From Terebella lapidaria (Eukaryota; Annelida; Polychaeta; Terebellida; Terebellidae): DNA of 64,000 nucleotides. A program made the translations under genes and the position numbers. The stretch is from assembly GCA_949152475.1 (NCBI GenBank), contig OX424568.1, positions 18,699,667-18,763,666 on the forward strand, in the 5' to 3' direction. Numbering within the stretch: the first letter of the stretch is position 1; every line of letters starts with the position of its first letter. Shown piece by piece: positions 6,001 through 53,100 of the stretch. Under the pieces are notes generated by a model, which saw only the letters and a program-made list of their open reading frames with translations, had not been told where the DNA came from and searched no databases.

Positions 6001-7860
6001 ATATTGAAAGTCCCCTAACATATTCCATTCATCTTATCGATGCACCTCTAGTGAGTATGAATGTAGAATTTCCCTTGCATATTGTTCATGCACTGCATGA
6101 GAACTTTAGCATGGTTCTATGGGATTGCCAAGATGCTGTGTTCTACTGACAACTGAGCCCATCTTGGTGTTGGAGCTCCTAGGCTGGCCACTCGATCTGC
6201 CAGGTCTTCGAGACTGATGTCCTCGGAGTAAGCGTCATCTAGGTTGGCTTTTGTTTCCAAGCGTCCAGCCGCCACTTTCTGAGGCAATGTGTGCCAAGGC
6301 ATCTTCTGCAAGATGATTTTCTTGGATCTCTTCATGGCTACTTCAACCTCTTTGATTTTTTTCTGATTAGCGCTTGCTTTTCTCTGATAATGTTGCTGAT
6401 GCTTGTTCTTTTGCCATAGTAGGAAATGCTCCCACTCATTTAAATCCATTTCAAAGTGGTGAAGAAAAAAAAAACCATGAGATTCTGATAATGTTTCTCA
6501 CTGTCCCTACAGATGTGCAAGCTTTGATCGAAGATTTCCGTCTTGAGATCTATCCTTTTTTCCCAGCCAACTTCAATGAAGCATATGGAACATTGGACCG
6601 GTTGTCATTGTTATGGGTAGTATTTTCTTCAGATGGTTCATAATCTCTATCTGGTTTACTATCAACCTTGAAGAGGGATACAATTTCAAACAGACAGGTC
6701 TTTAAGAATATCTACAGGAGGGCGTACATGGTACATGTACCTGTACCTGTCTAGTTCAGATGTACAGTGTAGCCACACGTCTTCAATGCCTGGATCTCAG
6801 TGGCCCAGCAGTAAGGGTAGAAGTGTCAGTCTGGTACTTGTCGGATCCGCAAGTATCCAAACAACATCCCGACTACAGTTTTTGAGAGGTGTGCCTGTGG
6901 CCTCGTAAATAGCCTCCGTGACACTCATCTACTGTTGGTCAGGTATGTTTTGCCGAGTCATTGTAGCTTATCGTCTGTCTTATCCCAGCATATTGTGCTC
7001 TGCATGATTCTTCATGGAGGAGCTGACCATCCTCACTCTGCTTCTTACTGCATTAATATGACACAATATATCGAATGCAGGCGTATGCATCAACAACATA
7101 TTGTGTAGTCAAAATTAGGATTCCAGGCTTTCAAAGGGTTTTGATTTGTACTGACTTACCCATCAGTCTTTGTGTTTATGCTTATGTACAACCATTTTCG
7201 TGGAGGCTATAATGTTCCAGGCTTGTTCCTCAGCAGCGTTTTTTCGCTCATCTGGATCAGTGTCTGTTGGGATGGCACATAAAGGTCTGACAAGAAGGTG
7301 GACGGGATAACCTGAACCTGTAGGTCCTGTTACCCTTCTTGCATGACCTTGTATAATTCTTGGAATGAAGCTGAACATCATTTATAATGTCATGTAACTT
7401 GTTGCATCTCGTCTAATCACGTCTTCTGTGTTGATATATTTGTTAATAACGTCAACAACTTCCTCATCAAGTTATATATATATGTCCAGCTTAGGACTCA
7501 GAAAAGGCAGTGAATGTAAGTACCAATGTGAGGGCAATCTCCTTGTAGAAATTCAATTGAAACAAAGTAGTCACAGACATTGCCAATTTGATTTGATGGT
7601 GAAGTGATCATCAATTTCAGAGTTTTTTTACTATCTGATCAAACATTCTGACAGCTGTTATATGGTTTTAAATACCTAATATAATATACTCAGTATTGAT
7701 ATGCCTAATATAATATACTTGGGTTTGATTGCTAGGAAAAAAATTATGCCTGGTAGTGGTACTGTTTATTTTGAAGTGCGAGTGAGTGTTATTAAACATA
7801 TTTGTTTGCATGTGTTTAATTAATTGGTCCTTATTTTGGCTTTTGGACAGTTGGATAGCT
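6001..7860. other. Interior of the 4.1-kb element, mostly unrecognised
   Basis: The minus strand of 6117-6449 can encode a charged 110-residue stretch that I do not recognise, rich in Lys and Glu at its N-terminal half. It may be an exon or remnant of the same element. The rest shows no recognisable protein and no clear repeat. Confidence 0.4.
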
Positions 7861-8600
7861 TCAAACTGGCCAATCACCATCTACACACCAAAGTATTTCT
7901 TCAGGTAGCACCCTCATGCCCCAAACCCCAGGACTGGCCACCAAAATTGCCTCTTATTTTGAATATGTGACGGTTATTGGTGCTTATTTGCAAAATTGAG
8001 CTATAATTTGGCAGCCATCTTGGATTCTGAGCAGCTTCGAACCATCAAATAATGAAACTGGTTATTCTAATCCTCATACCCAAAAACCCAGGTTTAGACA
8101 CCAAAATTGGCTTCCTATCTCAATTTGGCAGGAAGTAATGAGTATTTGTGTAAAAACGGCGAGAATTTGGTGGCCATCTTGTTTTTTTTTTCATTTTTGG
8201 GGGTCTGAATCGGTATTATTAGTATTGTTAGGAAGAATATATTTACATATAACTAATATGTATCATATTAGACTGATAGCATCATGACAGGAGGATAATT
8301 TTGCTTTTTTCCTAAAATACCAAATTGTCCGTGGCGGCCATTTTGAAAAAGGCCATAAAAAAGTTAGCCCAGGAGAAAATTTTACACACCCTCTGAAAAA
8401 GGTTGTCTTACACCATTATGAAGCCATATCAATTGATAGAAAAAGTCTGTACTACATTTCCACCCTGAGTGCCATATGCTCAATATTCCTCTTGACTAGT
8501 GGCGGTTCCAACGCAACGGTTTCATCAAGAAACATTTCTCAGAGTCCACTGACTCAGTCGTATTTGGTCAAGAAACTTTCATGAATGACAAGACTCTTAA

Positions 8601-8935: not shown

Positions 8936-9255
8936 GGCATAGAACGACGAGTTTGAGAGTTTGCCATTGGAAAAATTACTGGTATGATTACCTGCTTATT
9001 TTGGAGCCAGTTAAGGTTACGGTACCCAAAGTGTTTATTATAGAGGTTAAAGTGTGAATATAATTATAATAGGTACATTCACGTATTATTTCTGACCAGT
9101 GGTTTTACCAGTGAATTTGGCAACGATACATCATAGATACATCAAAGTCCTCTTAGTAGACACTCCACTCCATCTGGTTAACAGTTGAAACAGCATAGGA
9201 CATATACAAACAGCCTTCATTTTCTGTTTCAACTGGAAATGGCTCATGAATATTT
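8936..9255. other. No recognisable feature
   Basis: AT-rich sequence between the SINE and the next element. No ORF, repeat or motif stands out. Confidence 0.5.
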
Positions 9256-10612
9256 TTAGGTTACCGCACCTATGGTCCGTAACCTATTGGCATGGCGATG
9301 CGTCCGGCGTCGTCGTCGTCGTCGTCCGTCGTCGTCCGTCAACAATTTTATCTTTAAAGTTTACGATCGAATTTTTCTGAAATTTTGCACAAAAATGCCT
9401 AAAAATATTTCGAGAGGGAGGTATTTTTTATGTTTTTTGATTTTCGCATTTTCTTCAAAATGGCGGCCGTTTTCGTCGAAAAATGGCCAATTTTGGACTT
9501 TGGCGGTCGTTTTCTCAAAATCTGTTCAGTAACTTTTTTTTTATTGATGCATAACACTCCTCATATATACCCCTGTGACATGTATAAATTTCGTTGCCCT
9601 TGAATCGCTCGAAGTGGGCCATTTTGGGCCCAAACTCGGCCCAAATGGGACTTTCCCATGTTAAATTCTCCTATGCTTTATAATGGGACACATTAAAGCC
9701 TAATATCTCACTTATTATCGACTTTACAGCTTAGGAATCAATTGTGAACATATAGGAAATGATATATGCAGAATATTCTCGTGACCTTGAATTTGACCTT
9801 TGACCTCATTTTCAAGGTCACATAACAAAATGGCTAATATCTCGCTTATTATCGACTTTACAGTTTAGGAATCAATTGTGAACATATAGGAAAGGATATA
9901 TGCTGAATATTTTCGTGACCTTGAATTTGACCTTTGACCTCATTTCCAAGGTCACAGGACAAAATTGCTAATATCTCGCTTATTGTCGACTTTACAGCTT
10001 AGGAATCAATTGTGAACATATAGGAAATGATATATGCTGAAAATTCTCATGACCTTGAATTTGACCTTTGACCTCATTTTCAAGGTCAACAGGACAAAAT
10101 TGCCAATATCTTGCTTATTAGCTACTTTACAGCTTAGGAATCAATTGTGAACATATAGGAAATGATATATGCTGAAAATTCTCATGACCTTGAATTTGAC
10201 TTTTGACCTCATTTTCAAGGTCACATGACAAAATGGCTAATATCTCGCTTATTATCGACTTTACAGCTTAGGAATCAATTGTGAACATATAGGAAATGAG
10301 ATATTCTGAATATTTTAATCATATTGAGTTTGACCTTTGACCTAAATTTCAAGGTCAGTCATTTTATTTTCAAAGTCAGATTACAAAATGGCCTATATCT
10401 CGCTTATTATCAAATTTACAGCTTAGGGGTCCATAGTGAACATATAGGAAATGATGTATGCTGAATAGTTTGGTGATCTAGAATTTAACCTTTGATCCCA
10501 TTTTCAAGGTTAGAGATATGGCGATTTCAGTGGTCACCTTGAATTTGACCTTCAACTTTCTCGGCTTAACTCTGTATATTTCTCCGGTAACATTTCTAGC
10601 ACATTGGGCTAA
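9256..10612 (-). mobile_element. Family-2 hairpin/CTAA element, reverse orientation
   Basis: The first ~280 bases are the reverse complement of the right end of the elements at 19277-20803 and 21456-22968: a terminal hairpin, a GTC/GTCC-rich microsatellite, then the block with TGCACAAAAATGCCTAAAAA. The far end (about 10580-10612) matches a degraded left end, GGTAACATTTCTAGCACATTG. The middle is replaced by a 134-bp tandem array. It is non-coding and non-autonomous. Confidence 0.75.
9670..10560. repeat. 134-bp tandem repeat array (~6 units)
   Basis: The block TTGAATTTGACC (variants) starts at 9787, 9921, 10055, 10190 and 10324, giving a 134-135-bp period. Each unit also carries TCAAGGTCA, CAATTGTGAACATATAGGAAA and ATCTCGCTTATT. 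The array lies inside the family-2 element. Confidence 0.92.
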
Positions 10613-12048: not shown

Positions 12049-15000
12049 TTAGTTCCGTTTTTTCTTCTTTGTTTGCATAGTTCCAACGTTTTTCTGTTCC
12101 TCGTGAAGTCGTACAAGTTCGTCTTGTGTATCGGGCAGGGCGGGGCAGTATTTACTGTACTCCATTGTGAACTCTCCCTTGCCTTGCGTACAAGACCGCA
12201 GGTCAGTCGAATATCCAAACATCTCATTGAGTGGGACCTATTGTTTTAAAAGATATTTCTAAGATGAAAAAATGGCGACGTGCACAACGCTACTGGGAAT
12301 CACAGCCGAGAATTTGAAGGTCCATATTTCAAACTTAGGTTCAGAAAATATTATTCATAAAATTAATGAACTTTTTATAGAGAATATAGAAATGTGATAA
12401 AAATAAATTAATTATAAGAGTAGAGTAGTAACTAGACGTGAAGGCCTAGAGGCCTTGGGGCATTTCGATACACAACACAATCACAGGTGTTAATTACTGA
12501 CAACTCTGCAACCAAAATGATTATGTAGATACATCCATTTCAATCCAAGACGACGGTTTCTGAGATATAAATGAAAATAAACGAGATATGGCCGAAAATG
12601 AAATATGCCGACTCAGCAGAAAAAAAAAATTTGGCCCAGGCACAATTTCACCCAACATACCCCTAAGATATCTTTGTCTAGTACCACGAGTCCAAAAATA
12701 ACATAGATTTCATTCAACGATGTATCGTTTCCGAGATATGGCCAAAAATGAAAAAGCAAAAACGATTGGCCCAGGATCAATTTGACCCAACATACCCCTA
12801 AGACATATTTGCATAGTGTCACGAGTCCGTAAATAACGTCTGTTTCGCTCTACGATGCACTGTTTCCGAGATATGGCTGAAAACGAAAAATGCCGACTCG
12901 GCAAAAAAATTTCGGGTCAAGGTCGAAGTTCATCCATAATACCCCTAAGAGTCCGAAAATAACGTCCGTTTCGCTCTACGACGCACCGTTTCCGAGATAT
13001 CGAAGATAACGAAAAATTCCGACTCGGCAAAAAATGTTCGGGTCAAGGTCAAAGGTTATCCATAATACCCATAAGAGATGTTTGTCTAGGTCGACGAGTC
13101 CAAAAATAACGTCCGTTTCGCTCTACGACGCACCGTTTCCGAGATATCGAAGAAAACGAAAAATGCCGACTCGGCAAAAAAATTTCGGGTCAAGGTCAAA
13201 GTTCATCCATAATACCCTTTAGACATGTTTGTCTAGGGTGAGGAGTCCGAAAATAACGTCCGTTTCACTCTACGACGCACCGTTTCCGAGATATCGAAGA
13301 AAACGAAAAATGCCGACTCGGCAAAAAAAATTTGGGTCAAGGTCAAAGTTCATCCATAATACCCTTTAGACATATTTGTCTAGGAGGACGAGTCCGAAAA
13401 TAACGTCCGTTTCGCTCTACGACGCACCGTTTCCGAGATATCGAAGAAAACGAACAATGCCGATTCGGCAAAAAAAATTCGGGTCAAGGTCAAAGTTCAT
13501 CCATAATACCCTTTAGACATGTTTGTCTAGGTTGAGGAGTCCGAAAATAACGTCCGTTTCACTCTACGACGCACCGTTTCCGAGATATCGAAGAAAACGA
13601 AAAATGCCGACTCGGCAAAAAAAATTTGGGTCAAGGTCAAAGTTCATCCATAATACCCTTTAGACATATTTGTCTAGGGTGACGAGTCCGAAAATAACGT
13701 CCGTTTCGTTCTACGACACACCGTTTCCGAGATATGCAATGAGCCTCAAGGATGACTCATCAAAATTGTTTTTGGCCCCTGGGTCAAAGGTTGTTTGAGG
13801 GATTGACCCCGTAATCGATAGGGCTCCTCTGCGACACTATATCAACATTAATGTCAAGTTTCAGAATGGTAGCACAAGTACTTTTCGAGTTATCATCCGG
13901 AAACCATTTGACACGAAATTCATCCTCACGGACTATCCGGACCTCGGAGCCGGCTCCAAAACAATAGGGTTCATCTATGTAATATATGTGATAACTGGTG
14001 AAAATTTCTCGAAGATTCGTCAAGGCGTTCTTGAGTTATCGTCCGGAAACCGAAAAGTGAAAGAAAAAAAAAAAAAAAAAAAAATTCTGACAAAACCATA
14101 AGGGCATTTCGTGCCGAAATGCCCTAATTATAAGTCTTCCTGCAGCAATAGAACACCACACATGTGATGCATACATACATTGACTGCTATATGGTATACA
14201 TATAACTAACCTCGCAGATAACAGTGAAGTAGTTTTCCGTGGAGTCCTGTCCTATGATGATAGCGTGACGTTTGTTCAGCCCGGCTAGCACGGATCCTTG
14301 GTACTCCGACGGAGCATTGACCTCCACCGTCATCACAGGCTCCAGGATCTGCCAGTCCCCGAACTCAAATACTGACAGACGGGAGGGAGATAGGTCTTAG
14401 TGTATTGCAGATATTCATGTGTGGTACATGTATGGGAGGTTTATGTGTATGGCTGGCAATATTTTTGTTGATGATTTTAATTGATATTTGTATTGATTTT
14501 ATCAGATTTGGCTTCATAACTGAGGATATTTTGAGTGAAATTTCAATTCTCAGAGATTTTTCATAGATTTTTCTATTACATTCGTCTTTCAATCTTAAAA
14601 TTGATGTTAAGGATGACTGACATCAATGGTTCATTTGATCATGTTGATGTATTATATTTCCCAAACGTTTTATAATAGCAATCCCTGAGTTATCCTCAAC
14701 TGCAAGTTTCGACTTGTAACTGAGTATGGAGACTCAAATATGCCTACTAGTACATCGTTCATGCATTCTTTTCTTATTTGTGCAAAGAGAGGATCTTTTC
14801 AGAAAAGAACGCATGGCATCATTAAACGTTAATACATCATAAATATTAGAGATTTCGAATGGCATAATAACTATACGCCACCACACGAATGAGCAGAATC
14901 TTGTAACTCACAACATTGTTGTGTTGTGTTGACTTGCAAGATGAACTTTGCCAAAAGTAAGTGTTGAACTTTTGGGAATGAAAGAATATAAATTGCAACT

Positions 15001-18000: not shown

Positions 18001-21000
18001 CATCATAATTTTCTCACTGGTGCCGCTGAAATTTGAGATATTCTTACTTACAATTCAAATATCTCTGAGAATTTAAGAAGGATTACCAGGGAGTTTGTGC
18101 AAAGTGGAGTCCTACTGAAACTCACTATTTATGAACATACAGAGCACTTACTCTTTTTCATCCAGAGCGAAGTTTTCCACTTCATTGGGTTTGGGTAGAT
18201 ACTGTAAGATAGCGTCACAGAGAGGCTGAACTCCTTTGTTCTTTAGTGCGGAGCCCACTAGAACTGGGGTGAATGCTCGCTTCAGGGTGGCTCGACGAAT
18301 GGCAGCCTTTATGGGAAAGATCACCGACTTTTTACGATACATTGTCTTTGGCAACATGAAAATATGACTGTGATCAAAAATGTTCGCATGTTATTTTGCA
18401 AAAATTATCGAAACGTTTTCTCATGCCTTGATGTCGTCTTCATTCGGAGTTTTCTCTTCAAGGAACATTTCCCCGAGTGTATCGTCCGCATTCGCTACAC
18501 ATTCTACAATAACACCATAACACCTCACTGTTAGCTGGGTCACGAGTTCAAATCATTAAAACTACGCAATAATACTGCTATGTTTGTATTGTGTAGATTA
18601 CTAATCTGTGCTAGGGCGGATGTAACTTTAATACCGATCACCTATCAATTCCTGCCGTTTGTCCTCTGACTCTGCTCGGTGGTCCTGGGGTATTTCCTCC
18701 TCTCGGATTGACAACCTGAAATATATGATCAAATCTACGTTCAAATCTGAAGTTTGTTCAGCCTTGAATTACTGAGGATGTATACATAATCTTGGTCTAC
18801 ATACAGTCTGCATACTAATTAAAAGCTCAAGAATTTTCTATTTCAACATAGACCAAATCTCATTCAGACAACAGACATTCCGACACATTTTTAAAAACAA
18901 ACCCCATTGGTTCGTCGAAGTACACGGCCTTTCTGTCGATAAGATCTATGATTCCTTTGTTGTTGGCCTCGAGACCTATTGGAATCTGCATGAACGCAGC
19001 ATTGTGTCCTAACTTGTCTCTACAATGAACAGTGCAAGAGATATTTTGTTAGATTCTTTATTTGAATAATTGAGGCTATCCGAATTTAATTTATCCAATA
19101 AATTGAAACACAAAGGATTCCTTAGAAGTACAGATATACATGGTATATTATTATGAATCTCAACTTTAATGAAAAATAGTCAGTTGCTCACCAAAAGTTT
19201 TAAAAAGTGATTATTTTGTGAGAATTAAGTACAATAATGTATTATTTAACCAACATCAATCACCTAAAATGATAAATTAGCCCAAAGGCTAAGATAGGTT
19301 ACCGGACAATTTTGGTTTGGCCATGGCAGCATTGGCAGGTAACAGACCTTGAGATTTACCAATCAAGGTTCGCAGTGTAAACATATGACCTTGGGATTTA
19401 CCAATCAAGGTCATCCGTATGAACTTCGATGTAACCATTACATGTATGTGTGCGGCATTTGATATTCTATATGTTGGGTGGAATCGTTTAGGCCGCTCAG
19501 GTCAATTTACACATTCCAAGTCAGACATTTGGCACTCAAGGTCATCTGACGTCAAGTTCAAGGTCATCATTAGTTGTGCCATATATGTCTTCCTATATGT
19601 TCATAATGCAAACATGAGCTCTATCTGCAAGCATTTCATCTACAAGGGCAAATCTGGGCATTTTTTGACCCCAAAATGGCTGTTTTGACCTTTCAAGGTC
19701 ATCCAAGGTCAAATTCAAGGTCACCACACAAGTCGCCATATATGACTTCCCATTTGAAAGTGCCAATTTCTAAGCTCTATCTTCAAGCGTTCTATGAGTG
19801 CAGTCCTGACAGCTCCCATTATGAAGGAAAAAAGTGCCGAAAATTTTCCAAGTCCAAAATTTTTTTCAAAGGGTGAAAATTTTTTTTTGCCTAGAAATGG
19901 CCCAAAATGGATAGTAATGTTATTTGGGGCGAAAAATTTTTTTTTCGCCGACTCGTCAAAAATTCAAAATGGCCGCCACACTGAGATCGGCGATTCAAGG
20001 GCAACAAAACTTATACACGTCACAGAGGTATATAAGAGGAATCTTTTTAAGCAAAAATCTCAAAACTGATCAGAGAGTTTTTGAGAAAATACAGACCAGG
20101 TGCAAATTTGAGCGTTTTTCGACCCAAAAATGGCTGTTTTGACCTTTCAAGGTCATCCAAGGTCAAATTCAAGGTCACCACACTAGTCGCCATATATGAC
20201 TTCCCATTTGAAAGTGCCAATTTCTAAGCTCTATCTTCAAGCGTTCTATGAGTACAGTCCGGACAGCTCCCATTATGAAGGGAAAAAGTGCCGAAAATTT
20301 TCTAAGTCCAAAATTTTTTTCAAAGGGTGAAAATTTTTTTTTGCTCTAGAAATGGCCCAAAATGGATAGTAATGCGATCTGGGGCGAAAAAAAATTTTTT
20401 CGCCGACCCGCCAAAAATTCAAAATGGCCGCCACACGGAAACCGGCAGATTTAGGGCAACCAAACTTATACATATCACAGAGGTATATGAGGGGAATCTT
20501 TTGAAACCAAAAACTCAAAACTGATCAGACAGTTTTTGAGAAAATGGCCGTCAAAGTCCAAAATTGATCGTTTTTCGAGAAAAACGGCCGTCATTTTGAA
20601 AAAAATGCGAAAATCAAAAAACAAAAAAATACCTCCTTCTCAAAATATTTTTAGGCATTTTTGTGCAAAATTTCAGAAAGATTCGATCGTTAACTTTAAA
20701 GATAAAAATGTTAACGCCGGACGGACGGACGGACGGACGGACGGACGACGGACGCAACGCCATGCCAATAGGTTATCGGACCAAAGGTCCGGTAACCTAA
20801 CAATATTTCGTATTTCTGCAGAAATACAGAAAATGGTAGTTCTGCAGAAATACGCTTCTGCTATATTGTCCGGACTATGAAGGAAAATTGGGTGAAATTT
20901 TCGAAGTCCAAAAAATTTTTCAATGGCCAAAAAAAAAAATTTTTTTTTTGCTGGAAATGGCTCAAAACGAATGGTGACTTGATTTGGGCCAAAAAAACCC

Positions 21001-24000
21001 GTCAAAAAATCAAAATGCCCGCCACAAGCAGACCGGCGATTCAACATGTGTTCAAGGGAAACGAAACTTATACACGTCATAAAGGTACATGAGAGGAATG
21101 TTTTGAAAGAAAAATCTCAAAACTGATCAGACAGTTTTTGAGAAAATCGCCTCCAAAGTCCAAAATTGGCTTTAGAAACTGGCCCAAGGTATGTTCTGAC
21201 AAATTTATGGGGAAATTCATCATATCAAAAAAAAGTTACAGACCCGGACGGACGACGGACGGACGAAATACCACGACAATAACTTATCGGCCCAAAGGGC
21301 CGGTGAGCTAAAAACATTCAAATTTAGTGTTTTTCCCCCAAAATAAATCGAATATTCTTATGTTGCACAATCAGACTTTCTGAATACCTGATGTTATTTG
21401 TGCTCACATACATGGGAGTGACTGAAAGACCAAATAACAGATAACTTCGATAAAATTAGCCCAAAGGCTAAGATAGGTTACCGGACAATTTTGGTTTGGC
21501 CATGGCAGCATTGGCAGGTAACAGACCTTGAGATTTACCAATCAAGGTTCGCAGTGTAAACATATGACCTTGGGATTTACCAATCAAGGTCATCCGTATG
21601 AACTTCGATGTAACCATTACATGTATGTGTGCGGCATTTGATATTCTATATGTTGGGTGGAATCGTTTAGGCCGCTCAGGTCAATTTACACATTCCAAGT
21701 CAGACATTTGGCACTCAAGGTCATCTGACGTCAAGTTCAAGGTCATCATTAGTTGTGCCATATATGTCTTCCTATATGTTCATAATGCAAACAGGAGCTC
21801 TATCTGCAAGCATTTCATCTACAAAGGCAAATCTGGGCATTTTTTGACCCCAAAATGGCTGTTTTGACCTTTCAATGTCATCCAAGGTCAAATTCAAGGT
21901 CACCACACAAGTCGCCATATATGACTTCCGATTTGAAAGTGCCAATTTCTAAGCTCTATCTTCAAGCGTTCTATGAGTACAGTCCTGACAGCTCCCATTA
22001 TGAAGGAAAAAAGTCCAAAATTTTTTTCAAAGGGTGATAAAATTTTTTTGCCTAGAAATGGGCCAAAATGGATAGTAATGTTATTTGGGGCGAAAAAAAA
22101 TTTTTTCGCCGACTCGTCAAAAATTCAAAATGGCCGCCACACTGAGATCGGCGATTCAAGGGCAACAAAACTTATACACGTCGCAGAGGTATATAAGAGG
22201 AATCTTTTTAAGCAAAAATCTCAAAACTGATCAGAGAGTTTTTGAGAAAATACAGACCAGGTGCAAATTTGAGCGTTTTTCGACCCAAAAATGGCTGTTT
22301 TGACCTTTCAAGGTCATCCAAGGTCAAATTCAAGGTCACCACACAAGTCGCCATATATGACTTCCCATTTGAAAGTGCCAATTTCTAAGCTCTATCTTCA
22401 AGCGTTCTATGAGTACAGTCCAGACAGCTCCCATTATGAAGGGAAAAAGTGCCGAAAATTTTATAAGTCCAAAATTTTTTTCAAAGGGTGAAAATTTTTT
22501 TTTGCTCTAGAAATGGCCCAAAATGGATAGTAATGCGATCTGGGGGGAAAAATTTTTTTTTCGCCGACCCGCCAAAAATTCAAAATGGCCGCCACACGAA
22601 AACCGGCAGATTTAGGGCAACCAAACTTATACATATCACAGAGGTATATGAGGGGAATCTTTTGAAACCAAAAACTCAAAACTGATCAGACAGTTTTTGA
22701 GAAAATGGCCGTCAAAGTCCAAAATTCAGCGTTTTTCGACAAAAACGGCCGCCATTTTGAAAAAAATGCGAAAATCAAAAAACAAAAAAATACCTCCTTC
22801 TCAAAATATTTTTAGGCATTTTTGTGCAAAATTTCAGAAAGATTCGATCGTTAACTTTAAAGATAAAAATGTTAACGCCGGACGGACGGACGGACGGCTA
22901 GACGGACGGACGGACGACGGACGCAACGCCATGCCAATAGGTTATCGGACCAAAGGTCCGGTAACCTAATAAAACCGAACCTGATTTGGTGAAGGACGCG
23001 AGTGGGATCTGACCCCATGCGGTCAAGTTTGTTGATAAACGCGAGACAGGGTACATTATAGCGCATCATCTGTCTGTTAACAGTAAATGTCTGACTCTGT
23101 ACGCCACCGACAGCGCATAAAACAAGCACAGCTCCGTCCAACACACGCAGGGCTCGTTCCACTTCTATAGTGAAGTCCACATGACCTGGAAATAGTGAAT
23201 TTTCAAATGAAGTTCATGGTAAGTGTTACGGTATTTGTGCTCGTCGAATAAATTTAAATTTTTCGCGTTGAACTACTATAACATCATGAAAATCGAGCAA
23301 AAGAATAAGACACAGGATAGTTGCAACACTATAATATATTAATTACTGTGACTGAAACCGCAAACTCGAATGATTATCATCATGATCTGTTGAGGATTAT
23401 CGAGTATCCATGGAGAATCATTCCACAGTCGTACTGACCAGGTGTATCGATGATGTTGATGTTCGTCCCTCGCCACTCCGTGTACGTAGCGGCAGACTGG
23501 ATCGTGATCCCGCGCTGTCTTTCCAGCTCCATGAAATCCATCGTAGCTCCGACCCCATCCTTCCCTCGAACCTGTCCACAATTGCAACAGCTCAAGTCAT
23601 CAACAAACATGGTTAATGTGTATAAAATTGTGTACTAGTACAAGAATATGCTACAGAGGTATTGAAACAATAAATGTATAATTTCAAGGCATGAGGCTCA
23701 TGAGAACCATAACAAATTCATCTGCATGCATCCGTAGTCAACAAAACCCCGGCATGAATATTATACTAAATGGAACAGATATAGTTTTTGTTTTGACAGA
23801 AATAAATAAATTTTTGAGCATAACAGTACCTCATGCATTTCATCCACCCGACCGGTGTAGAAAAGAATTCTCTCGGTCAGCGTGGTTTTTCCCGAGTCGA
23901 TGTGAGCGGAAATTCCAATATTCCTGATGTGGTCGACATCTTTGAATTCCTGTAAACATAGGTACCGGCATTAGCATTCTATCTTTTTATACTTTGGTCA

Positions 24001-27702: not shown

Positions 27703-29211
27703 TAAGGCATTTCGGATGCCTTTATGGTTTTAGCAGAATTTTTTTTTCTTTTCCGTCATTTTGGTTTCCGACCGATAACTTTAGTTTGCCTCGATGTATC
27801 TTCGCCAAATTTTCAGCATTGGTCAGACATATTATGTGGAAGAACCCTATTGTTTTTCAGCCAGATCCGAGGTCCGTGAGGGCTGTGAGAATGAAATCAA
27901 AGTTGTTTTTTGGACTTTGTTTCCACGCGATAACTCAAAAAGTATGTAGGCAATGGCTGCAGAACTTTGCACGGAGGTTCATATATCAATAGGGAAGAAC
28001 CTCTCACGACCTCTGACCTAGATGTTGGAAGAGTTTTCGCCCAGTCATCCCTGAGGTTTCCTGCATATCTTGGAAACGGTGTGTTGTAGAGCGAAACGGA
28101 CGTTATTTTCGGACTCGTCGCCCTAGACAAACATGTCTAAGGGGTATTAAAGGTGACCTTCGACCTTGACCCTGAAATTTTCTGCCGAGTCGGCATTTTT
28201 CGTTTTCGTCGATATATCGGAAATGGTGCGTCGTAGAGCGAAACGGACGTTATTTTCAGACTCGTCGCCCTAGACAAACATGTCTAAGGGGTATTAAGGA
28301 TGACCTTCGACCTGGACCTTGAATTTTTCTGCCGAGTCGGCATTTTTCGTTTTCGTCGAAACGGACGTTATTTTCGGGCTCGTGGCACTAGACAAACATG
28401 TCGAAGGGGTATTATGGATGAACTTTGACCTTGACCTAAAATTTTTTCGCCGACTCGGCATTTTTCGTTTTCGTCGATATCTCAGAAACGGTGCGTCGTA
28501 GAGCGAAACGGACGTTATTTTCAGACTCGTTGCCCTAGACAACCATGTCTAAGGGGTATTAAGGATGACCTTCGACCTCGACCTTGAATTTTTCTGCCGA
28601 GTCGCCATTTTTTTCGTTTTCGTCGATATCTCGGAGCGGTACGACGTAGAACGAAACGGATGTTATTTTCGGACTCGTGACACTAGACAAACATGTCTAA
28701 GGGGGTATTATAGATGAACTTTGACCTTCGCCGAGTCGGCGTTTTTTTGCCGACCTGAAAATTTTTCGCCGAGTCGGCATTTTTCGTTTTCGTCGATATC
28801 TCGGAAACGGTGCGTCGTAGAGTGAAACGGACATTAATTTTGGACTCGTGGCACTAGACAAACATGTCTAAGGGGTATTATGGATAAACTTTGACCTTGA
28901 CCTGAAAGTTTTTCGCCGAGTCTGCATTTTTCGTTTTCGTCGATATCTCGGAAACAGTGCGTCGTAGAGCGAAACGGACGTTATTATCGCACTTGTGGCA
29001 CTAGACAAACATGTCTAAAGGGTATTTATGGATAAACTTTGACCGTGACCTGAAATTTTTTCGCCGAGTCGCATTTTTTCGTTTTCGTCGATATCTTGGA
29101 AACAGTGTGTCGAAGAGCATTGTAGAGCCCATGGTAAACATGTTATAAATATTACAAATTAGTCTTAGCACCGAAATGCCTCCAAGGCATCTTTAGGCCT
29201 TGACGTCTAGT
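27703..29211 (-). mobile_element. Family-1 HINE-like element (copy b)
   Basis: On the minus strand it starts CTAGACGTCAAGGCCTAAAG (29211 leftwards) and ends with a hairpin AAGGCAT/ATGCCTT followed by AAT at 27703. It has the same plan as copy a: 147-bp satellite core (about 28085-29130) and a 3' unique block with the GATAACT-type TCCGG/CCGGAAACC words. The last intact spacings are 147 bp (28131 to 28278). Non-coding. Confidence 0.75.
28085..29130. repeat. 147-bp satellite array (copy b)
   Basis: About seven units in the orientation opposite to copy a, recognised by ACATGTCTAAGGGGTATT, CCGAGTCGGCATTTTTCG and GCGTCGTAGAGCGAAACGG. Some units carry small deletions or duplicated words (near 28345 and 28730). 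Confidence 0.9.
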
Positions 29212-30429
29212 TTAATTTACACTCAGACCCAGCGTCTTTTAGAACCCGGCGTTTATTAGAACCCGGCGTTTATTGATTTCAGTCATTGTCTGGACCTGGC
29301 GTTCATCGGAATTGCCAACGGGCGAGGCCTGTGTTATGATGACTAATTGGACGGCAGTCTAGATTTTGAAAGCTGGAAATTCCTAATTGGGACGCATTGA
29401 CGTTGTTGATTCAGGGCGTTTTGGGCGTGCTCTTCCAAAATGGACATACATGTAACCTCGAGACAGTGCATTTGATCTGTTTCGTTGTCTCCAGATTAGC
29501 CAGGCATTCCTATTGGATTTACGCGAATTACTATGGTAACGGGAAAAAATCTTTTCATCTCGGATCCGGGAAATGGGCGAAAATGCATTTTTCACGGCCA
29601 TCTTGTATTAAATGCAAATTGATTATGTTGTATATTAGATGGTTTCCAGGAGATATCATAAGACAGATTGTAGATGGAAATACATTACCTTGCATCTAAT
29701 TCCAAGTGGACCATCAGTTTGCCAGGACTACATAATATAGGTTGAATTCTGAAGTTAAACTTCTGTGTTTTGGTGGGTCATATGGGGAATTGGCACCTTG
29801 TAGTTCACTGTATGTAGAATCTGAATGTCTATTTGGCTTCCCCATGTAACAAAACATAAGAATAGACCCCTTATTTGTCTTCGTATGTTAAATATCAAAG
29901 AAGTTATGACCGTTTCCGTATTTTGACATGAGTGATGGCGGCCATTTTGGATTTTTGGCCATATTTCTAGGTTCGGGAAAAATCTGGCTTGGTATTGTAG
30001 CTAAAATCAATATATATATATATGTACTCAGCCTGATTTGTACCAATGTTGGTGCTTTTACCACCAAACCCACAATTATTCCACATATCTGCTGCACTAA
30101 ATTGCTAGTTCGCCCGCGCGGTGTCGAATTACATTTTTTGTGTCATGTCGCCAATACGCTCCCGTAGAAAAAAGTGGGATATAACACAAAAAAGACTAAA
30201 CAGGCACACCTGAGCACTAAGCATGGAATAATTTTACTTTTAACTTGAACCTTTTCAAATTGGAGTTGATCTTGAACATGTTGGACGTCAATCCTCAGTG
30301 GCCGAGGAAGAGTGTTTTTATGGGTTATTGATATTTCCGACTTTTATGTGATCACTTATCGCTCGGCTTTTGCTGGTGAGGGAAGTTCGAAGTTCGTCCT
30401 GGTTAAAATAACGATAAAAGTGTGACAGT
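29212..30429. other. Intergenic, no gene recognised
   Basis: It contains CCCGGCGTTTATTAG direct repeats (29240-29275), AATGGCGGCCATTTTGG-like palindromic words near 29937 and a short (TA)n at about 30010. No conserved ORF was found. Confidence 0.5.
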
Positions 30430-34849: not shown

Positions 34850-35440
34850 TGACCTTGCAAATGAGATTTTACAATGTATATTATCTGGTGAATCGAATAC
34901 TAGATCATTTAGGTGCTTGAGTTTATGAAATATCGGCAAATGTACGTTGTTGCTATGCTGTCAAGGAAACAATATTCTATTTTTGGTCAAATTGGTAACT
35001 GGAATACTTCATCAAGACATGTTCTAGGTTCTAATATGCTTTCATGAATTTGTGATCATGTATAGAAAATCATGTTTTCTACAGTTACTTTTGTGCTGTT
35101 GTAATGACGAAATAAATTGTTTGTGTTGTTATGTTTATTTGGTTTGCTGGAGAACATGGGCCATAAAATATATGATATGGTGTCTTGATCATCAGTGAAC
35201 GAACTGGGGCCTAACTATCTTGTCTAAGTGTATCTCACACCCAACCTAGGATCTCCACTGAGGAATTAGTTAATTTTATACTGCTGTCTGAAATAATAAT
35301 TTCCTGTCCTTTTCAAGGCATGTTGAGCGCTGCATGATTATCATAAAAATCATTAGTTATTTTGGTACAGTCTAGATATTTTTCATTTAGCTTATTGTGT
35401 TAGATATGATATTTTGTACACGGCGAAAGTATCCATAAGC
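34850..35440. other. 3' flank of the ASB-like gene
   Basis: AT-rich, no gene seen. It includes the alternative poly(A) signal near 35108 and ends at the foldback element. Confidence 0.5.
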
Positions 35441-35749
35441 GCTTTCAGCGATGAAATGATGAAGACCCAATGAGAACCAATGTCTCGGCTGGGTCGAACG
35501 GGGTTACCACTGGGTCTGGCCGCAAACTGTACTTCGGGATCATACATTTTCACAATGTAATTTCCGGTTTACTATGGTGTGTCAGTAGCAGTGCCAGTGC
35601 CGTGGTGATCAATAAATTATTGACCCAACCCTAGTACTCTATACGGCCTACCCCCGTCCCCCTAATTTAAATTTAAAGGAATGACCATTGGCAAGAGGAA
35701 AGATTCATCGCTTAATCATTTGACATACCTACTGAGAATCTGACCCAGT

Positions 35750-37430
35750 GGGACACTCATCATTTCATCTTTTCAACTGACCCAGTGGGAACCTGACCCA
35801 ATCAGACATTCATCGCTTCATCATTTCACTTGACCTAGTGGGACACTGACCCAGTGGGACACTCATCATTTCATCTTTTCAACTGACCCAGTGGGAACCT
35901 GACCCAATCAGACATTCATCGCTTCATCATTTCACTTGACCAGAAATACATTGGTCTTATGTATTTCTGACTTGACCTAGTGGGACACTCATCATTTCAT
36001 CCTTTCAACTGACCCAGTGGGAACCTGACCCAGCCAGACATTCATCGCTTCATCATTTTACATGACCCAGTGGGACACTCATCATTTCATCCTTTCAACT
36101 GACCCAGTGGGAACCTGACCCAGCCAGACATTCATCGCTTCATCATTTTACATGACCCAGTGGGATACTCATCATTTCATCCTTTGAACTGACCGAGTGG
36201 GAACCTGACCCAGTCAGACATTCATCATTTTACATGACCCAGTGGGACACTCATCATTTCATCCTTTCAAATGACTCATATTGGGAACCTGACCCAGTCA
36301 GAAAATCATCGCTTCATCATTTTACCTGACACAGTGGGACACTCATCATTTCATCCTTTCAACTGACCCAGTGGGAACCTCCTCATTTCATCATTCCAAC
36401 TGACCCAGTGGGAACCTGACCCAGTCAAACATTCATTGCTTCATCACTTTACATGACCCAGTGGGACATTCATCATTTCATCCTTTTAACTGACCCAGTG
36501 GGAACCTGACCCAGCCAGACATTCATCGCTTCATCATTTTACCTGACCCAGTGGGACACTCATCATTTCATCCTTTCAAATGACTCATATTGGGAACCTG
36601 ACCCAGTCAGAAATTCATCGCTTCATCATTTTACATGACCCAGTGGGACATTCATCATTTCATCCTTTTAACTGACCCAGTGGGAACCTGACCCAGCCAG
36701 ACATTCATCGCTTCATCATTTTACCTGACCCAGTGGGATACTCATGATTTCATCCTTTCAACTGACCCAGTGGGAACCTCACCCAGCCAGACATTCATCG
36801 CTTCAACATTTAGCATGACCCAGTGGGACACTCATCATTTCATCATTTCAACCGACCCAGTGGGAACCTGACCCAGTGAGACATTCATCATTTCATCATT
36901 TTACATGGTCAAGTGGGACATTCATCATTTTACATAACCCGGTGGGACACTCATCATTTCATCCTTTCAACTGACCCAGTGGGAACCTCATCATTTCATC
37001 ATTCCAACTGACCCAGTGGGAACCTGACCCAGTCAGACATTCATCGCTTCATCATTTTACCTGACCCAGTGGGACACTCATCTTTTCATCCTTTCAACTG
37101 ACCCAGTGGGAACCTGACCCAGCCGGACATTCATCACTTCATCATTTAACATGACCCAGTGGGACACTCATCATTTCATCATTTCAACTGACCCAGTGGG
37201 AACCTGACCCAATGAGGCCTTTATCATTTCATCATTTTACCTGACCCAGTGGGATATTCATCTTTTCATCCTTTCAACTGACCCAGTGGAAACCTCATCA
37301 TTTCATCATTCCAACTGACCCAGCCAGACGTTCATTGCTTCATCATTTCACTTGACCTAGTAGGACACTCATCATTTCATCATTTCAACTGACCCAGTGG
37401 GAACCTGACGGAGTCAGTAATTTAACACTT
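35750..37430 (+). repeat. Left arm array, ~90-bp unit
   Basis: CATGACCCAGTGGGA starts at 36061 and 36151, a 90-bp spacing. Each unit has two subunits of about 37 and 53 bp that both start TGACCCAGTGGGA. There are roughly 18-20 units, with frequent deletions of one subunit. Confidence 0.9.
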
Positions 37431-37439
37431 CATTTTCAA

Positions 37440-38045
37440 GGCAGACACCAGTAATGCCTTTATGCTTTTGTCAAAAAGAATTCTCTTTTTCTTTCATTTT
37501 CTGGTTTCCGCACGATAATTTCAGTTTGCCCTGATATATCTGCCAAATTTCCACAGCTGGTCAGAAATGAGGTGTAGAAAGAGCTTATTGTTTTTGAGCT
37601 GGGTTCGGGGTCCGCAAGGTTCGTGAGGATGAAATCAACATTTCTGGTTCCACATGATAACTAAAAAAATATTATGGCAATGACTGTGGGACTTTGCTTA
37701 GAGGTCCATATATCACCAGGGAAGAAGACTGTTAATTTTGAGGGTGATCCGTCGAATGACGGTTGACCTAGGGCTTGAAATAATTTTAGCTGAGTCATCC
37801 TTGTGGCTCTCATGCATATCTCGGAAGCTGTGCGTCGTGGAGCGAAACAGACGTTATTTTCGGACTTGTGGCGGAGTGAAATATATTCAACGGGTACTGG
37901 GGATGAACTTTGACCTTGACCTGAATTTTTTTTGTCCAGTCGGAAAAATGCTGTGTCGGCATTTTTCACGAAAAATGCTGTGAAAGAAGAAAAAACGAAA
38001 AAAAAATTTTTTTTGACAAAACCGTAAAGGCGTATGTGCTGAAAT
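37440..38045. mobile_element. Core of the foldback: family-1 fragments with inverted 3' ends
   Basis: 37445-37930 reads as a reverse-oriented family-1 3' part (GATAATTTCAGTTTGCC, AGCGAAACAGACGTTATTTT, one satellite unit). 38005-38043 reads as a forward family-1 3' end (GACAAAACCGTAAAGGCG, ending ACCTTAAT). Two 3' ends therefore face outward at the centre of the palindrome. Confidence 0.65.
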
Positions 38046-40700
38046 ACCTTAATGATGAAGCAATCAATGTCTGACTGGCTGAGGTTCCCTCTGGGTCAGA
38101 TGGAAGGATGAAATGATCAGTGTCCCACTAGGTCAAGGGAAATGATGAAGCGATGAATATCTGACTGGTTCAGGTTCCCATTGGGTCATTTGAAAGGACG
38201 AAATGATGAATGTCTCAGTGGGCCATGTAAAGTGATGAAATGAATGTTTCACTGGGTCAGGTTCCCACTGGGTCAATTGAAATGATGAAATGATGAGTGT
38301 CCCACTGGGTCATGTGAAATGATGAAGCAATGAATGTCTGGCTGGGTGAGGTTCCCATTGGGTCAGTTGAAATGATGAGTGTCCCACTGGGTCAGGTAAA
38401 ATGATGAAGCGATGAATGTCTGGCTGGGTCAGGTTCCCACTGGGTCAGTTAAAAGGATGAAATGATGAATGTCCCACTGGGTCATGTAAAGTGATGAAGC
38501 GATGAATGTCTGACTGGGTCAGGTTCCCACTGGGTCAGTTGGAATGATGACATGATGAGGTTCCCACTGGGTCAATTGAAAGGATGAAATGATGAGTGTC
38601 CCACTGGGTCATGTAAAATGATGAAATGATGAATGTCTGACTGGATCAGGTTCCCACTGGGTCGATTGAAATGATGAAATGATGAGTGTCCCACTGGGTC
38701 AGTTGAAAGGATGAAATGATGAGTGTCCCACGGGGTTATGTAAAATGATGAAATGATGAATGTCCCACTTGGCCATGTAAAATGATGAATGTTTCACTGG
38801 GTCAGATTCCCACTGGGTCAGTTGAAAGGATGAAATGATGAGTGTCCCACTGGGTCAGGTAAAATGATGAAGCGATGAATTTTTGACTGGGTCAGGTTCC
38901 CAATATGAGTCATTCGAAAGGATGAAATGAGTGTCCCACTGGCTCATGTAAAATGATGAAGCGATGAATGTCTGGCTGGGTCAGGTTCCCACTGGGTCAG
39001 TTAAAAGGATGAAATGATGAATGTCCCACTGGGTCATGTAAAATGATGAAGCGATGAATGTCTGACTGGGTCAGGTTCCCACTGGGTCAGTTGAAATGAT
39101 GAGTGTCCCACTGGGTCGTGAAATGATGAAATGATGAATGTCTGACTGGGTCAGGTTCCCACTGGGTCGGTTGAAATGATGAAATGATGAGTGTCCCACT
39201 GGGTCATGTTAAATGATGAAGCGATGAATGTCTGGCTGGGTCAGGTTCCCACTGGGTCAGTTGAAAGGATGAAATGAGTGTCCCACTTATTCAGGTAAAA
39301 TGGTGAAGCAATGAATGTCTAACTGGGTGAGATTGCCACTGGGGCAGTTGAAAGGATGAAATAATGAGTGTCCCACTGTGTCAGGTAAAATGATGAAGCG
39401 ATGAATGTCTGACTGGGTCAGGTTCCCACTGGGTCAGTTGTAATGATGAAATGATGAGGTTCCCACTGGGTCAGTTGAAATGATGAGTGTCCCACTGGGT
39501 CATGTAAAATGATGAAATGATGAATGTCTGACTGGGTCAGGTTCCCACTGGGTCAGTTAAAAGGATGAAATGATGAATGTCCCACTGGGTCATGTAAAGT
39601 GATGAAGCGATGAATGTCTGACTGGGTCAGGTTCCCACTGGGTCAGTTGAAAGGATGAAATGATGAGTGTCCCACTGGGTCATGTAAAATGATGAAATGA
39701 TGAATTTCTGACTGGGTCAGGTTCCCACTGGGTCGGTTGAAATGATGAAATGATGAGTGTCCCACTGGGTCATGTTAAATGATGAAGCGATGAATGTGTG
39801 GCTGGGTCAGGTTCCCACTGGGTCAGTTGAAAGGATGAAATGAGTGTCCCACTTATTCAGGTAAAATGGTGAAGCGATGAATGTCTGACTGGGTCAGGTT
39901 CCCACTGGGTCAGTTGAAAGGATGAAATGATGAGGTTCCCACTGGGTCAGTTGAAAGGATGAAATGATGAGTGTCCCACGGGGTTATGTAAAATGATGAA
40001 ATGATGAATGTCCCACTTGGCCATGTAAAATGATGAATGATGAATGTTTCACTGGGTCAGGTTCCCACTGGGTCAGTTGAAAGGATGAAATGATGAGTGT
40101 CCCACTGGGTCAGGTAAAATGATGAAGCGATGAATTTTTGACTGGGTCAGGTTCCCAATATGAGTCATTCGAAAGGATGAAATGATGAGTGTCCCACTGG
40201 CTCATGTAAAATGATGAAGCGATGAATGTCTGGCTGGGTCAGGTTCCCACTGGGTCAGTTGAAAGGATGAAATGATGAATGTCCCACTAGGTCATGTAAA
40301 ATGATGAAGCGATGAATGTCTGACTGGGTCAGGTTCCCACTGGGTCAGTTGAAAGGATGAAATGATGAGTGTCCCACTGGGTCATGTAAAATGATGAAAT
40401 GATGAATGTCTGACTGGGTCAGGTTCCCACTGGGTCAGTTGAAATGATGAAATGATGAGTGTCCCACTGGGTCATGTTAAATGATGAAGCAATGAATGTC
40501 TGGCTGGGTCAGGTTCCCACTGGGTCCGTTGAAAGGATGAAATGAGTGTCCCACTTATTCAGGTAAAATGATGAAGCGATGAATGTCTGACTGGGTCAGG
40601 TTCCCACTGGGTCAGTTGGAAAGATGAAATGATGAGTGTCCCATTGGGTCACATGTAATGACAAAACAAATGCTCCTGGCTGTGCTCCGTTGGGTCTTTT
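38045..40700 (-). repeat. Right arm array, ~90-bp unit
   Basis: Same unit as the left arm in reverse complement (GGTTCCCACTGGGTCAGTTG, AAATGATGAAGCGATGAATG). There are about 28-30 units. Larger groups of several units also recur (for example around 38860-39060 and 40090-40290), pointing to higher-order duplication. Confidence 0.9.
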
Positions 40701-41347
40701 CGAGAGACCCAGCTGAGACCTGTTGGTTGTCATTGGGTCTTCATCATTTCATCGCTGAAACCCCCTCTCAAAATAAAATTCTATGTAACGGAGATTAAAA
40801 TTGCATATGATCCCTCTGGTGGAGATTAAAGCTAGAAATGAGTTCTAGACGCCATTGCTATGATAAATTCTTGGACTATTTTTCGTTTTATTAGAGTAAA
40901 TTCAATTGTTTGACCGAAATGTATTAAATTACAGCAAAGATTACGGCGAGGAACACGAGCTATTTATGTCGGTATGTACGTTCATCTGATTCTGTTGTTG
41001 ACTTTGGTACACCGTAAACAGTACAGCCCGTAGCCCCCACCATATGATGTCCATGGCCCCCACATTGTTGCCACGATTAGACCCTAGGCAGCTGCTAGAC
41101 AGTGGTTAGGGAGCACATGTACAATATATTGGGCAATCCTGTTTCTCCATGATAATAAATGACAATGATGAGTTAATCAGTGGCATGAAATGATAGATAC
41201 AGAAAAAAGAACATCTGATGTGTAATAAAGAACACTTTTCTATCATAACCAGTTGTCATTCCGGATCCTGAGTATGGGAAATTAGTTGGTAATAAATTTG
41301 CCCACGTTATTGTACATCCTAGCCGTGGTTAGGATCGAATCGTAACA

Positions 41348-42003
41348 ACCACACTGTCACGTACTGGGCCACATGCTGCGTTCCAATCACGTTGTGCAAA
41401 TGGTGCGCACGGGTTTCCGAGGAGTATTTTGCATTCTATTCATGACACAACTGTGAAATTCCCATTTGCACAACCTGTGAAGTTGAGGCAGTTGTTCAGA
41501 CTCAATGTGCACAAGTAGGAAAAACATGGCGTCAAATGGCATATTGTGTAAAAGTAATACAGAATACAAACATTTTGTTAGTTTTACCTAGTATCATACA
41601 TACAGTATATGAATGAAATGATTCGAGACTGAAATTTAAAGTGAAGATTTGACCTGTGAAGTTGAGGCAGTTGTTCAGACTCAATGTGCACAAGTAGGAA
41701 AAACATGGCGTCAAATGGCATATTGTGTAAAAGTAATACAGAATACAAACATTTTGTTAGTTTTACCTAGTATCATACATACAGTATATGAATGAAATGA
41801 TTCGAGACTGAAATTTAAAGTGAAGATTTGACTGAATTTTCAATTATTTTTGGCCTGAGTTAGTTCGAATTTTTATGCAATAATTAGGGTGTCAAAATGT
41901 GTGCCTTTTTCATTGGAACGCAACAACTTGTACTCTCCAACTTCCCGCTAGTGCACACCATTTGCACAACATGATTGGAACGCAGCAACAGTCACAGTGT
42001 GGT
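41348..42003. mobile_element. MITE ~656 bp with ~60-bp inverted ends
   Basis: The left end ACCACACTGTCAC... and TGCTGCGTTCCAATCACGTT continue to GCAAATGGTG. The right end is the inverted copy (CACCATTTGCACAACATGAT, GTCACAGTGTGGT), with a few mismatches and a gap. It contains a 179-bp tandem duplication. Non-coding. It lies about 435 bp upstream of the CEP19 start codon. Confidence 0.8.
41474..41831 (+). repeat. 179-bp direct duplication inside the MITE
   Basis: CCTGTGAAGTTGAGGCAGTT at 41474 recurs at 41653, and the copies appear identical to their ends (GTGAAGATTTGAC). The duplication is recent relative to the host element. Confidence 0.93.
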
Positions 42004-50167: not shown

Positions 50168-53100
50168 AAAAAAACAGACAAAAACATAAGGCCTCCCGAT
50201 TTTCAATCGGGATGCCTAATAATTATTGAAGACAACATCCAATCAAAATTGAAAACCGTCATAGAAGGAATTAAAAAAAACATATCCAAAACTATTCCGA
50301 AGAAATGAATGCCTGATCATCCTTGATATTATAATGTGTATCATATAAACCATCATAATTATATTGACATATGATACACAACACTAAAGGAAAGGCACAA
50401 CACAATATATCATACTATAAAATCAAATCAGTCGTTAATTTTCTAGACAATGTTTTCGACAGTTTAACTACACACCCAAGCATACTAGTACTCCAAAAAC
50501 ACTATACAACATAAACACATTCAACACACAACGCTATCTTGCACACCTCTTCACTGCTCGGTCCCGGCTCATCGGCGGACTGTCAAAATAAACCCAGAAA
50601 TTGGATAACTTGCTGATATTGGGCGAGTTTTGGAGACATTTCTTGGTATTAGCAGGAAACTAGACGTCAAGGCCTAAAGATGCCTTGGAGGCATTTCGGT
50701 GTGATGATTAATTTATAATATATACTAGATATCGACGAAAAAGAAAAATGCCGACTCGGCAAAAAAATTTCGGGTCAAGGTCAAAGTTCATCCATAATAC
50801 CAATTAAACATGTTTGTCTAGGGCGACGAGTCCAAAAATAACATCCGTTTCGCTCTACGAAGCATCGTTTCCGAGATATCGACGAAAACGAGAAATGCCG
50901 ACTCGGCAAAAAAATTTCGGGTCAAGGTCAAAGTTCATTCATAATACCCTTAAGACATGTTTGTCTAGGGCGACGAGTCCGAAAATAACGTCCGTTTCGC
51001 TCTACGAAGCACCGTTTCCGAGATATCGACGAAAACGAAAAATGCCGACTCGGCAAAAAAATTTCGGGTCAAGGTCAAAGTTCATCCATAAAACCCTATA
51101 GACATGTTTGTCTAGGGCGACGAGTCCGAAAATAACGTCCGTTTCGCTCTACGAAGCACCGTTTCCGAGATATCGCCGAAAACGAAAAATGCCGACTCGG
51201 CAAAAAAATTTCGGGTCAAGGTCAAAGTTCATCCATAATACCCCTTAGGCATGTTTGTCTAGGGCGACGAGTCCGAAAATAACGTCCGTTTCGCTCTACG
51301 ACACACCGTTTCCGAGATATCGCCGAAAACGAAAAATGCCGACTCAGCAAAAAAATTTCGGGTCAAGGTCAAAGTTCATTCATAATACCCCTCAGACATG
51401 TTTGTCTAGGGCGACGAGTCCGAAAATAACGTCCGTTTCGCTCTACGACACACCGTTTCCGAGATATCGACGAAAACGAAAAATGCCGACTCGGCAAAAA
51501 ATTTTCGGGTCAAGGTCAAAGTTCATCCATAATACCCCTTAGACATGTTTGTCTAGGGCAACGAGTCTGAAAATAACGTCCGTTTCGCTCTACGACGCAC
51601 CGTTTCCGAGATATCGACGAAAACGAAAAATGCCGACTCAGCAAAAAAATTCAAGGTCAAGGTCATGTTCATCCATAATACCCCTTAGACATGTTTGTCT
51701 AGGGCGACGAGTCCGAAAATAACGTCCGTTTCGCTCTACGACGCACCGTTTCCGAGATATGCAGGATGCCTCATGGATGACTCAGCAAAAAATTATTTTG
51801 ACCTCTAGGTCAAAGGTCGTTTGACGTATCGATCCCAAAATCAATAGGGTTCTTCCCTGTTGATATATAAACCTCCGTGCAAAATTCTGCAACTATTGCC
51901 TGAATATTTTTCGAGTTATCGTCCGGAAATCAAGTTTCAAGATCAGCCTCGATTTCATCCTCAAGGACCTCACGGACCTCGGAGCCGGATCAAAAAAAAT
52001 AATACACCCTAGAGATGTTTGTCTAGGGCGACGAGTCCGAAAATAACGTCCGTTTAGCTCTACGACGCACGGTTTCTGAGATATGCAGGAAGCCTCAAGG
52101 ATGAATCAGCAAAAAATTATTTCGACCTCTAGGTCAAAGGTCGTTTGACGGATCGATCCCAAAATCAATAGGGTTCTTCCCTGGTGGCATATGAACCTCC
52201 ATGCAGAGTTCTGCAACTATTGCGTAAATATTTTTCCAGTTATCGTCCGGAAACCAAGTCTCAAAATTAGCCTTGATTTCATCCTCACGGACCTCACGGA
52301 CCTCGGATCCGGCTCAAAAAGAATAGGGTTCTTCCACATATCATTTCTGACTTGTGGTGAAAATTTGACGAGGATCCGTCAAGGCAATCTAAAGTTATCG
52401 TCCGGAAACCAAAAGTGGCGGAAGAAGAAGAAAAAAAAAAAAAAAATCTGCTAAAACCATAAAGGCATTTCGGCAGACATGCACATGTAGATACAATTTG
52501 TATACATCTGTTTCGTCATGTTCATATCGCTTGTAATAATTGGCATAAAAAAAATGGCTTCACTCTGAACTTGATAAATCGATCAATATTTTGTAATATT
52601 AAAAATTTCACCATTTCCATGACAACAATGATATGAATGTATTCTGTCCCCATGGCTACCCTACTAACCACTGACTACCTACCGAAGCAAGTTTGCCCGC
52701 GGGGTACAGCCGGTCGAGAAATCCTGATGCCTGGGTGGCCAGATGGAACAGTTCTTGTTCCACAGAACTGTGACATATTGAAGCAACCTTGACGCTGCAA
52801 AATGAATATTTACGAATATTTCAGCAAAATATATAGATTTGAACAGAGTGACCCAGTCATACATTGGTTACCATGGTGATATTCACTGCGCCCCTACCTT
52901 TTGATGAGAAGTTCCGTAGCCTCCACAAAGGAGTGAAGTATTGACGTCTCTTCATCACTAAGCAGGTGATGCCGTGGGCTGATTGGTCGCTCAATCTTCT
53001 GTTTCTCGGTCCAAGTTTTCAGAGCTTCCTCGAATACCTGGAATCATTCAAGAAGTTTATTTTATAGCGGCCTTGTCTAGTATTTGAAAGTCAAAGTCAT

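Follow-up and report, generated by a model that had tools for sequence, protein, structure and literature searches.

A window of 64,000 nucleotides from the genome of the polychaete annelid Terebella lapidaria (GCA_949152475.1, contig OX424568.1, positions 18,699,667 to 18,763,666; coordinates below count from the first base of the window) contains a block in which two arrays of one minisatellite face each other across a different centre. The question raised by this locus is whether the block entered the genome as a mobile element of the foldback type or was assembled in place by other events. An old insertion is the most likely of the origins considered, and we assign a probability of roughly 0.6 to the reading of the block as a single copy of a foldback-like DNA element that is old, rearranged and non-autonomous. 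The block comprises 5,318 bp (35443-40760) and consists of opposed arms of a 90-bp minisatellite, inverted tips and a 0.6-kb core of distinct sequence resembling HINEs (non-autonomous Helentrons). A first-pass annotation of the sequence had already recognized the foldback plan, i.e. long inverted repeats of tandem units with inverted tips and a different middle, and each of these components is found again here (Table 1). The left limit of the block is moved from 35441 to 35443, since the first two bases (GC) are absent from the right tip.

As for the tips, the sequence TTTCAGCGATGAAATGATGAAGACCCAATGA is present at 35443-35473 on the + strand and at 40730-40760 on the - strand with 0 mismatches in both (31 of 31 positions identical), against a highest count of 0 in 100 shuffles. 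BLAST stretches the tip-tip match to 55 columns at 90.9% identity; the identity stops at the block limits and no match is found outside the tips. Contained in the tip is the 13-bp motif GATGAAATGATGA, which recurs 44 times in the arms (27 in the right, 17 in the left), always in the orientation opposite to that of the adjacent tip, and has 0 occurrences in the window outside 35400-40800. Alignment of the left tip, taken as 83 bp, with the array unit reached a score of 37 compared to a maximum of 35 in 500 dinucleotide shuffles, and the first part of the left subterminal stretch, to about 35516, aligns with the unit as a continuation of this tip; the right tip, with a score of 26, lies barely over the corresponding maximum of 24. 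The earlier view of tips distinct from the array is thus correct only in part: they form separate matching ends, but their sequence is partly array-like.

The subterminal stretches between tips and arrays have no detectable match to each other, neither in inverted orientation (score 16, equalled or exceeded in 83 of 500 shuffles) nor in direct orientation (score 14, reached by 234 of 500). Matching tips and arrays separated by non-matching sequence are unlike the outcome of one clean inverted duplication and fit ends kept by selection. This point bears on a local rearrangement, which we regard as unlikely, whereby the minisatellite and an adjoining HINE-like element were duplicated in inverted orientation, e.g. 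through repair primed by a foldback, with the tips simply marking where the duplicated segment ends. Although the partly array-like tips speak for such an event, a single duplication predicts continuous homology from tip through array to core, which is interrupted in precisely these stretches.

Three blocks (37, 37 and 16 bp) make up the 90-bp period of the arrays. Each of them terminates in a variant of ACTGGGTCA, which served as the cutting site with a tolerance of two errors. The two longest inverted matches between the arms have lengths of 398 nt (90% identity) and 386 nt (93%), and identity amounts to about 91-97% wherever aligned pieces span 100 bp or more. Of the 46 units, 32 entered a tree (10 from the left and 22 from the right arm), the 14 outside 78-95 bp being dropped. 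The arms are intermingled in this tree, with 9 label changes compared to a shuffled mean of 8.7; values as low occurred in 377 of 500 (right) and 386 of 500 (left) shuffles. The nearest neighbour of the 18 left units is a right unit in 11 cases and a left unit in 5, with 2 ties, and that of the 28 right units is another right unit in 23 cases and a left unit in 5. An independent amplification of the two arms was rejected because the units are not sorted by arm. The right arm contains internal duplications (846 columns with 93.4% and 474 with 96.2% identity; offsets of 702 and 1,251 bp), which can explain why it is the longer arm. Both arrays join the core at nearly equal unit phase, a coincidence expected by chance in about 1 of 10 cases according to a hand estimate; this and the derivation of the units of both arms from one mixed pool are further points in favour of a local rearrangement.

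That one arm is an artefact, produced either by a misjoin in inverted orientation or by a read folded back on itself, is highly improbable. Assembly of long tandem arrays is difficult, and reads with foldback artefacts are on record (PMC12870357); however, the arms are unequal (1,731 versus 2,605 bp), their longer aligned pieces are similar and not identical, the tip-to-array sequences differ between the halves, and the core is asymmetrical except at its ends. The long hairpin anticipated in the first-pass annotation is reproduced by a predicted minimum-energy RNA fold of all 5,318 nt, in which 1,533 left-arm bases pair with the right arm, 21 pairs form within the left and 259 within the right arm, and the tips pair with each other.

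The core belongs to a second repeat family with a HINE-like layout, which is a new identification. It matches three fuller copies in the window, termed E52, E28 and E14, at 75% over 403, 69% over 505 and 69% over 506 columns, respectively. These relatives hold 147-bp tandem arrays, while the core has one related unit. Their ends are arranged as in HINEs: the 5' end carries the subterminal repeat GGCATTTCGG and its complement, followed by a T-run and the array, and their 3' end CCGAAATGCC plus a palindrome. Within 1 mismatch, the 5' subterminal repeat is found in two of the three relatives (E14, E28), the 10-bp 5' complement also in two (E14, E52) and the 3' subterminal repeat in all three; the palindrome was seen by eye in the three aligned ends. 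In the core, the 5' repeat and its complement are both degraded, and a search for the HINE 3' pattern gave no match. Both edges of the core carry a HINE-type 5' end, and either one outscores all 500 shuffles when compared with E52, E28 and E14 in turn.

These two inner ends score 18 against each other and 23-33 against the relatives in the shuffle test, whereas MAFFT yields 62% identity over 98 columns between them and, in comparison with the relatives, 67-68% for the left and 55-65% for the right end, the pieces being short and T-rich, which limits the comparison. The two measures disagree, and the mutual likeness of the ends seems to be no clearer than their likeness to other copies. On this mixed evidence their origin as one recent inverted duplicate was rejected. 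The low mutual score argues against a local rearrangement as well, a point that the MAFFT values leave unclean. An interpretation of the block itself as a Helitron-like element was rejected on account of the identical inverted tips at its very ends, which are unlike subterminal repeats. A rather doubtful suggestion is that the block combines two mobility systems, namely a cut-and-paste foldback whose inner domains are the 5' ends of a rolling-circle element of the Helentron type, its arms being placed immediately outside two inward-facing HINE ends. If this applied family-wide, foldbacks would lengthen their inverted repeats by taking in the ends of rolling-circle elements.

Table 1. Components of the foldback-like block and its HINE-like relatives in the window
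Feature	Position	Strand	Remarks
Left tip	35443-35495	+	first 31 bp equal the inverted right tip; similarity runs to 35495
Left subterminal stretch, tip to array	35496-35702	.	207 bp; no detectable match to right side
Left arm	35703-37433	-	1,731 bp of 90-bp minisatellite, unit on - strand
Core	37434-38050	+	HINE-like left part; one unit of the 147-bp type, ~37816-37943
HINE-type 5' end, left edge of core	37436-37472	+	inward-pointing
Second HINE-type 5' end, right edge of core	38018-38056	-	inward-pointing; overlaps first array bases
Right arm	38051-40655	+	2,605 bp of 90-bp minisatellite; internal long-range duplications
Right subterminal stretch, array to tip	40656-40705	.	50 bp; no detectable match to left side
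Right tip	40706-40760	-	inverted counterpart of left tip
HINE-like relative E14	12430-14123	-	147-bp tandem array
HINE-like relative E28	27706-29213	+	147-bp tandem array
HINE-like relative E52	50657-52473	-	147-bp tandem array

As a foldback-like element, the block would possess terminal inverted repeats that each combine a short, conserved tip with a subterminal stretch and the 90-bp minisatellite, and its middle domain would be part of a HINE-like (Helentron-associated) element. In analogy to Galileo and Tetris, the tip might serve as the main binding site for a trans-acting transposase, and the GATGAAATGATGA copies along the arms, again in analogy to Galileo, as secondary sites. The subterminal stretches may have diverged past recognition or have been replaced. 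The arrays presumably grow, shrink and exchange units by unequal exchange or conversion, which would leave the units of the arms mixed, and the right arm would have been lengthened through its internal duplications. Mobility, transposase binding and past conversion between the arms are inferred, whereas the anatomy, the identity of the tips and of the core, the motif common to tip and array, the mixing of units and the right-arm duplications are directly observed.

Several observations weigh against an old foldback insertion. A single copy of the block is known, and besides its two tips no tip copy with up to 3 mismatches is present in the 64-kb window. The link between tip and array is modest for the shared 31 bp alone, whose score against the unit was reached by 4 of 500 shuffles, and the score of the left tip against the unit in opposite orientation was reached by 9 of 500. 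Moreover, a perfect 31-bp match barely exceeds the expectation from arms that are 90-97% alike. The mirrored order of units is weak, the observed value being reached by 13, 5, 18 and 231 of 1000 permutations in four settings (46, 37, 97 and 748 of 1000 for the reversed order), and a strict mirror order from a single inversion was rejected for this reason; the longest stretch common to the arms was reached by 21 and 38 of 300 permutations. Finally, no target-site duplication was found, the longest exact string common to the two 36-base end windows having 4 bp. There are three such 4-bp strings, none of which abuts both tips, and near-matches were judged by eye only. The missing duplication also speaks for a local rearrangement, and the earlier proposal of a 5.3-kb unit of transposition gains no support from the two end windows.

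The block is flanked by ...AAGCGC on the left and by CCCCCTC... on the right. For Spy, the excerpts of PMC4482050 describe a cut-and-paste transposition without duplication and an insertion within AAATTT; a Spy-type insertion was rejected in view of these flanks. Unlike flanks would also result if the block were a chimera of two foldback copies generated by ectopic recombination, each tip retaining one half of a different target-site duplication, and the block might then mark an inversion breakpoint. We consider such an origin improbable. The differing subterminal stretches and arm lengths agree with it, but the units are not sorted by arm, as those of two long-separate copies might be, unless conversion erased the sorting.

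The left neighbour of the block is an open reading frame with Pfam matches to ankyrin repeats that ends about 950 bp away, and the right neighbour, starting about 1.6 kb away, matches CEP19 (Pfam). In total, the window contains 24 open reading frames of at least 110 aa; the Pfam scan covered 7 of these 24 and gave matches in 3, in line with an animal host. The sole such frame touching the block (37661-38095, 144 aa) has no Pfam match, and an Rfam scan of the window returned 0 matches at the gathering threshold. In viral contigs, neither a 29-base pattern from the array nor a 27-base pattern from the tip had an exact match (0 each), which says little about a eukaryotic repeat. Among the papers listed as containing letter strings of the repeats, all are by title unrelated biomedical or plant studies, in which the strings are probably primers.

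Other repeats are present elsewhere in the window. At 41473-41832, 0.7 kb to the right of the block, a 179-bp unit is duplicated head-to-tail with 100% identity, which is due either to assembly or to a duplication that happened very recently. A long inverted pair (4431-5150 and 7747-8471; 84% over 739 columns), 2.6 kb apart and with arms devoid of a tandem array, is possibly a second long-inverted-repeat element. A dispersed repeat occurs at 19648-20134 and 22263-22749 (91% over 490 columns), with shorter pieces, 84% alike, at 9253-9600, 20453-20807 and 22614-22972; two of its copies contain a CGGA microsatellite.

As a single copy, the block is mainly an annotation result. If further copies exist, it would represent a foldback-plan family in an animal lineage whose tandem repeats are described, in the literature excerpts considered, mainly inside Helitron/HINE elements, and one could trace, unit by unit, how a minisatellite arose from the tips of a transposon. 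The junction between foldback and HINE-type ends bears on the question of how inverted repeats grow. In the open-licence literature, limited to excerpts on Tetris, Galileo, Tm1, DINE-1 and Cg_HINE together with PMC5139131, PMC11136912 and PMC4482050, no foldback with HINE-type ends inside its arms is described, and a head-to-head Helentron with terminal inverted repeats had no match in open-licence literature.

The foldback design itself is already known from other species. FB of Drosophila and TU of sea urchin possess composite inverted repeats of tandem units around a variable middle. The block resembles these elements, as well as Tm1 of the root-knot nematode, by its plan. Tm1 likewise has composite tandem-unit inverted repeats and a variable middle, but carries duplications of 8-10 bp in 45 of 53 elements (PMC3169594); across Galileo, Tetris and Tm1 the target-site duplications measure 7-10 bp. 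As no such duplication was found at the block, we do not assign it to FB, Galileo, Tetris or Tm1, although it is built alike. HINE and Cg_HINE have a subterminal inverted repeat, complement, T-run, central tandem array, 3' repeat and palindrome (PMC4067079, PMC7492417), to which the layout of the core and its relatives compares to the extent given above; HINE insertion is expected at TT and without duplication. In oyster HINEs, flanks and repeats are reported to have one orientation without exception, whereas the core of the block has a 5'-type end on both sides and no 3' module was found in it. The F group of Galileo, a member of the P superfamily in Drosophila, also has long inverted repeats that owe part of their length to tandem repeats within them, has recruited internal sequence into them and includes chimeric copies without matching duplications (PMC3573991); its repeats are said to contain secondary binding sites. 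It differs by a known transposase relative, 7-bp duplications and two or three repeats of ~210 bp compared to tens of 90-bp units in the block. Tetris, a foldback of Drosophila virilis with FD, OD, ID and M domains, shares with the block the outer flanking, tandem-repeat, inner and middle domains, a variable non-coding middle without transposase, and sequence common to tips and internal repeats, in Tetris a 37-bp stretch of ~80% identity (PMC4079207). Its repeats are, however, ~220 bp long, the flanking domain extends to as much as 866 bp and target-site duplications of 8-9 bp accompany complete copies, whereas the block, in which no duplication was found, combines a 90-bp unit and a tip of ~55 bp with a HINE-like middle.
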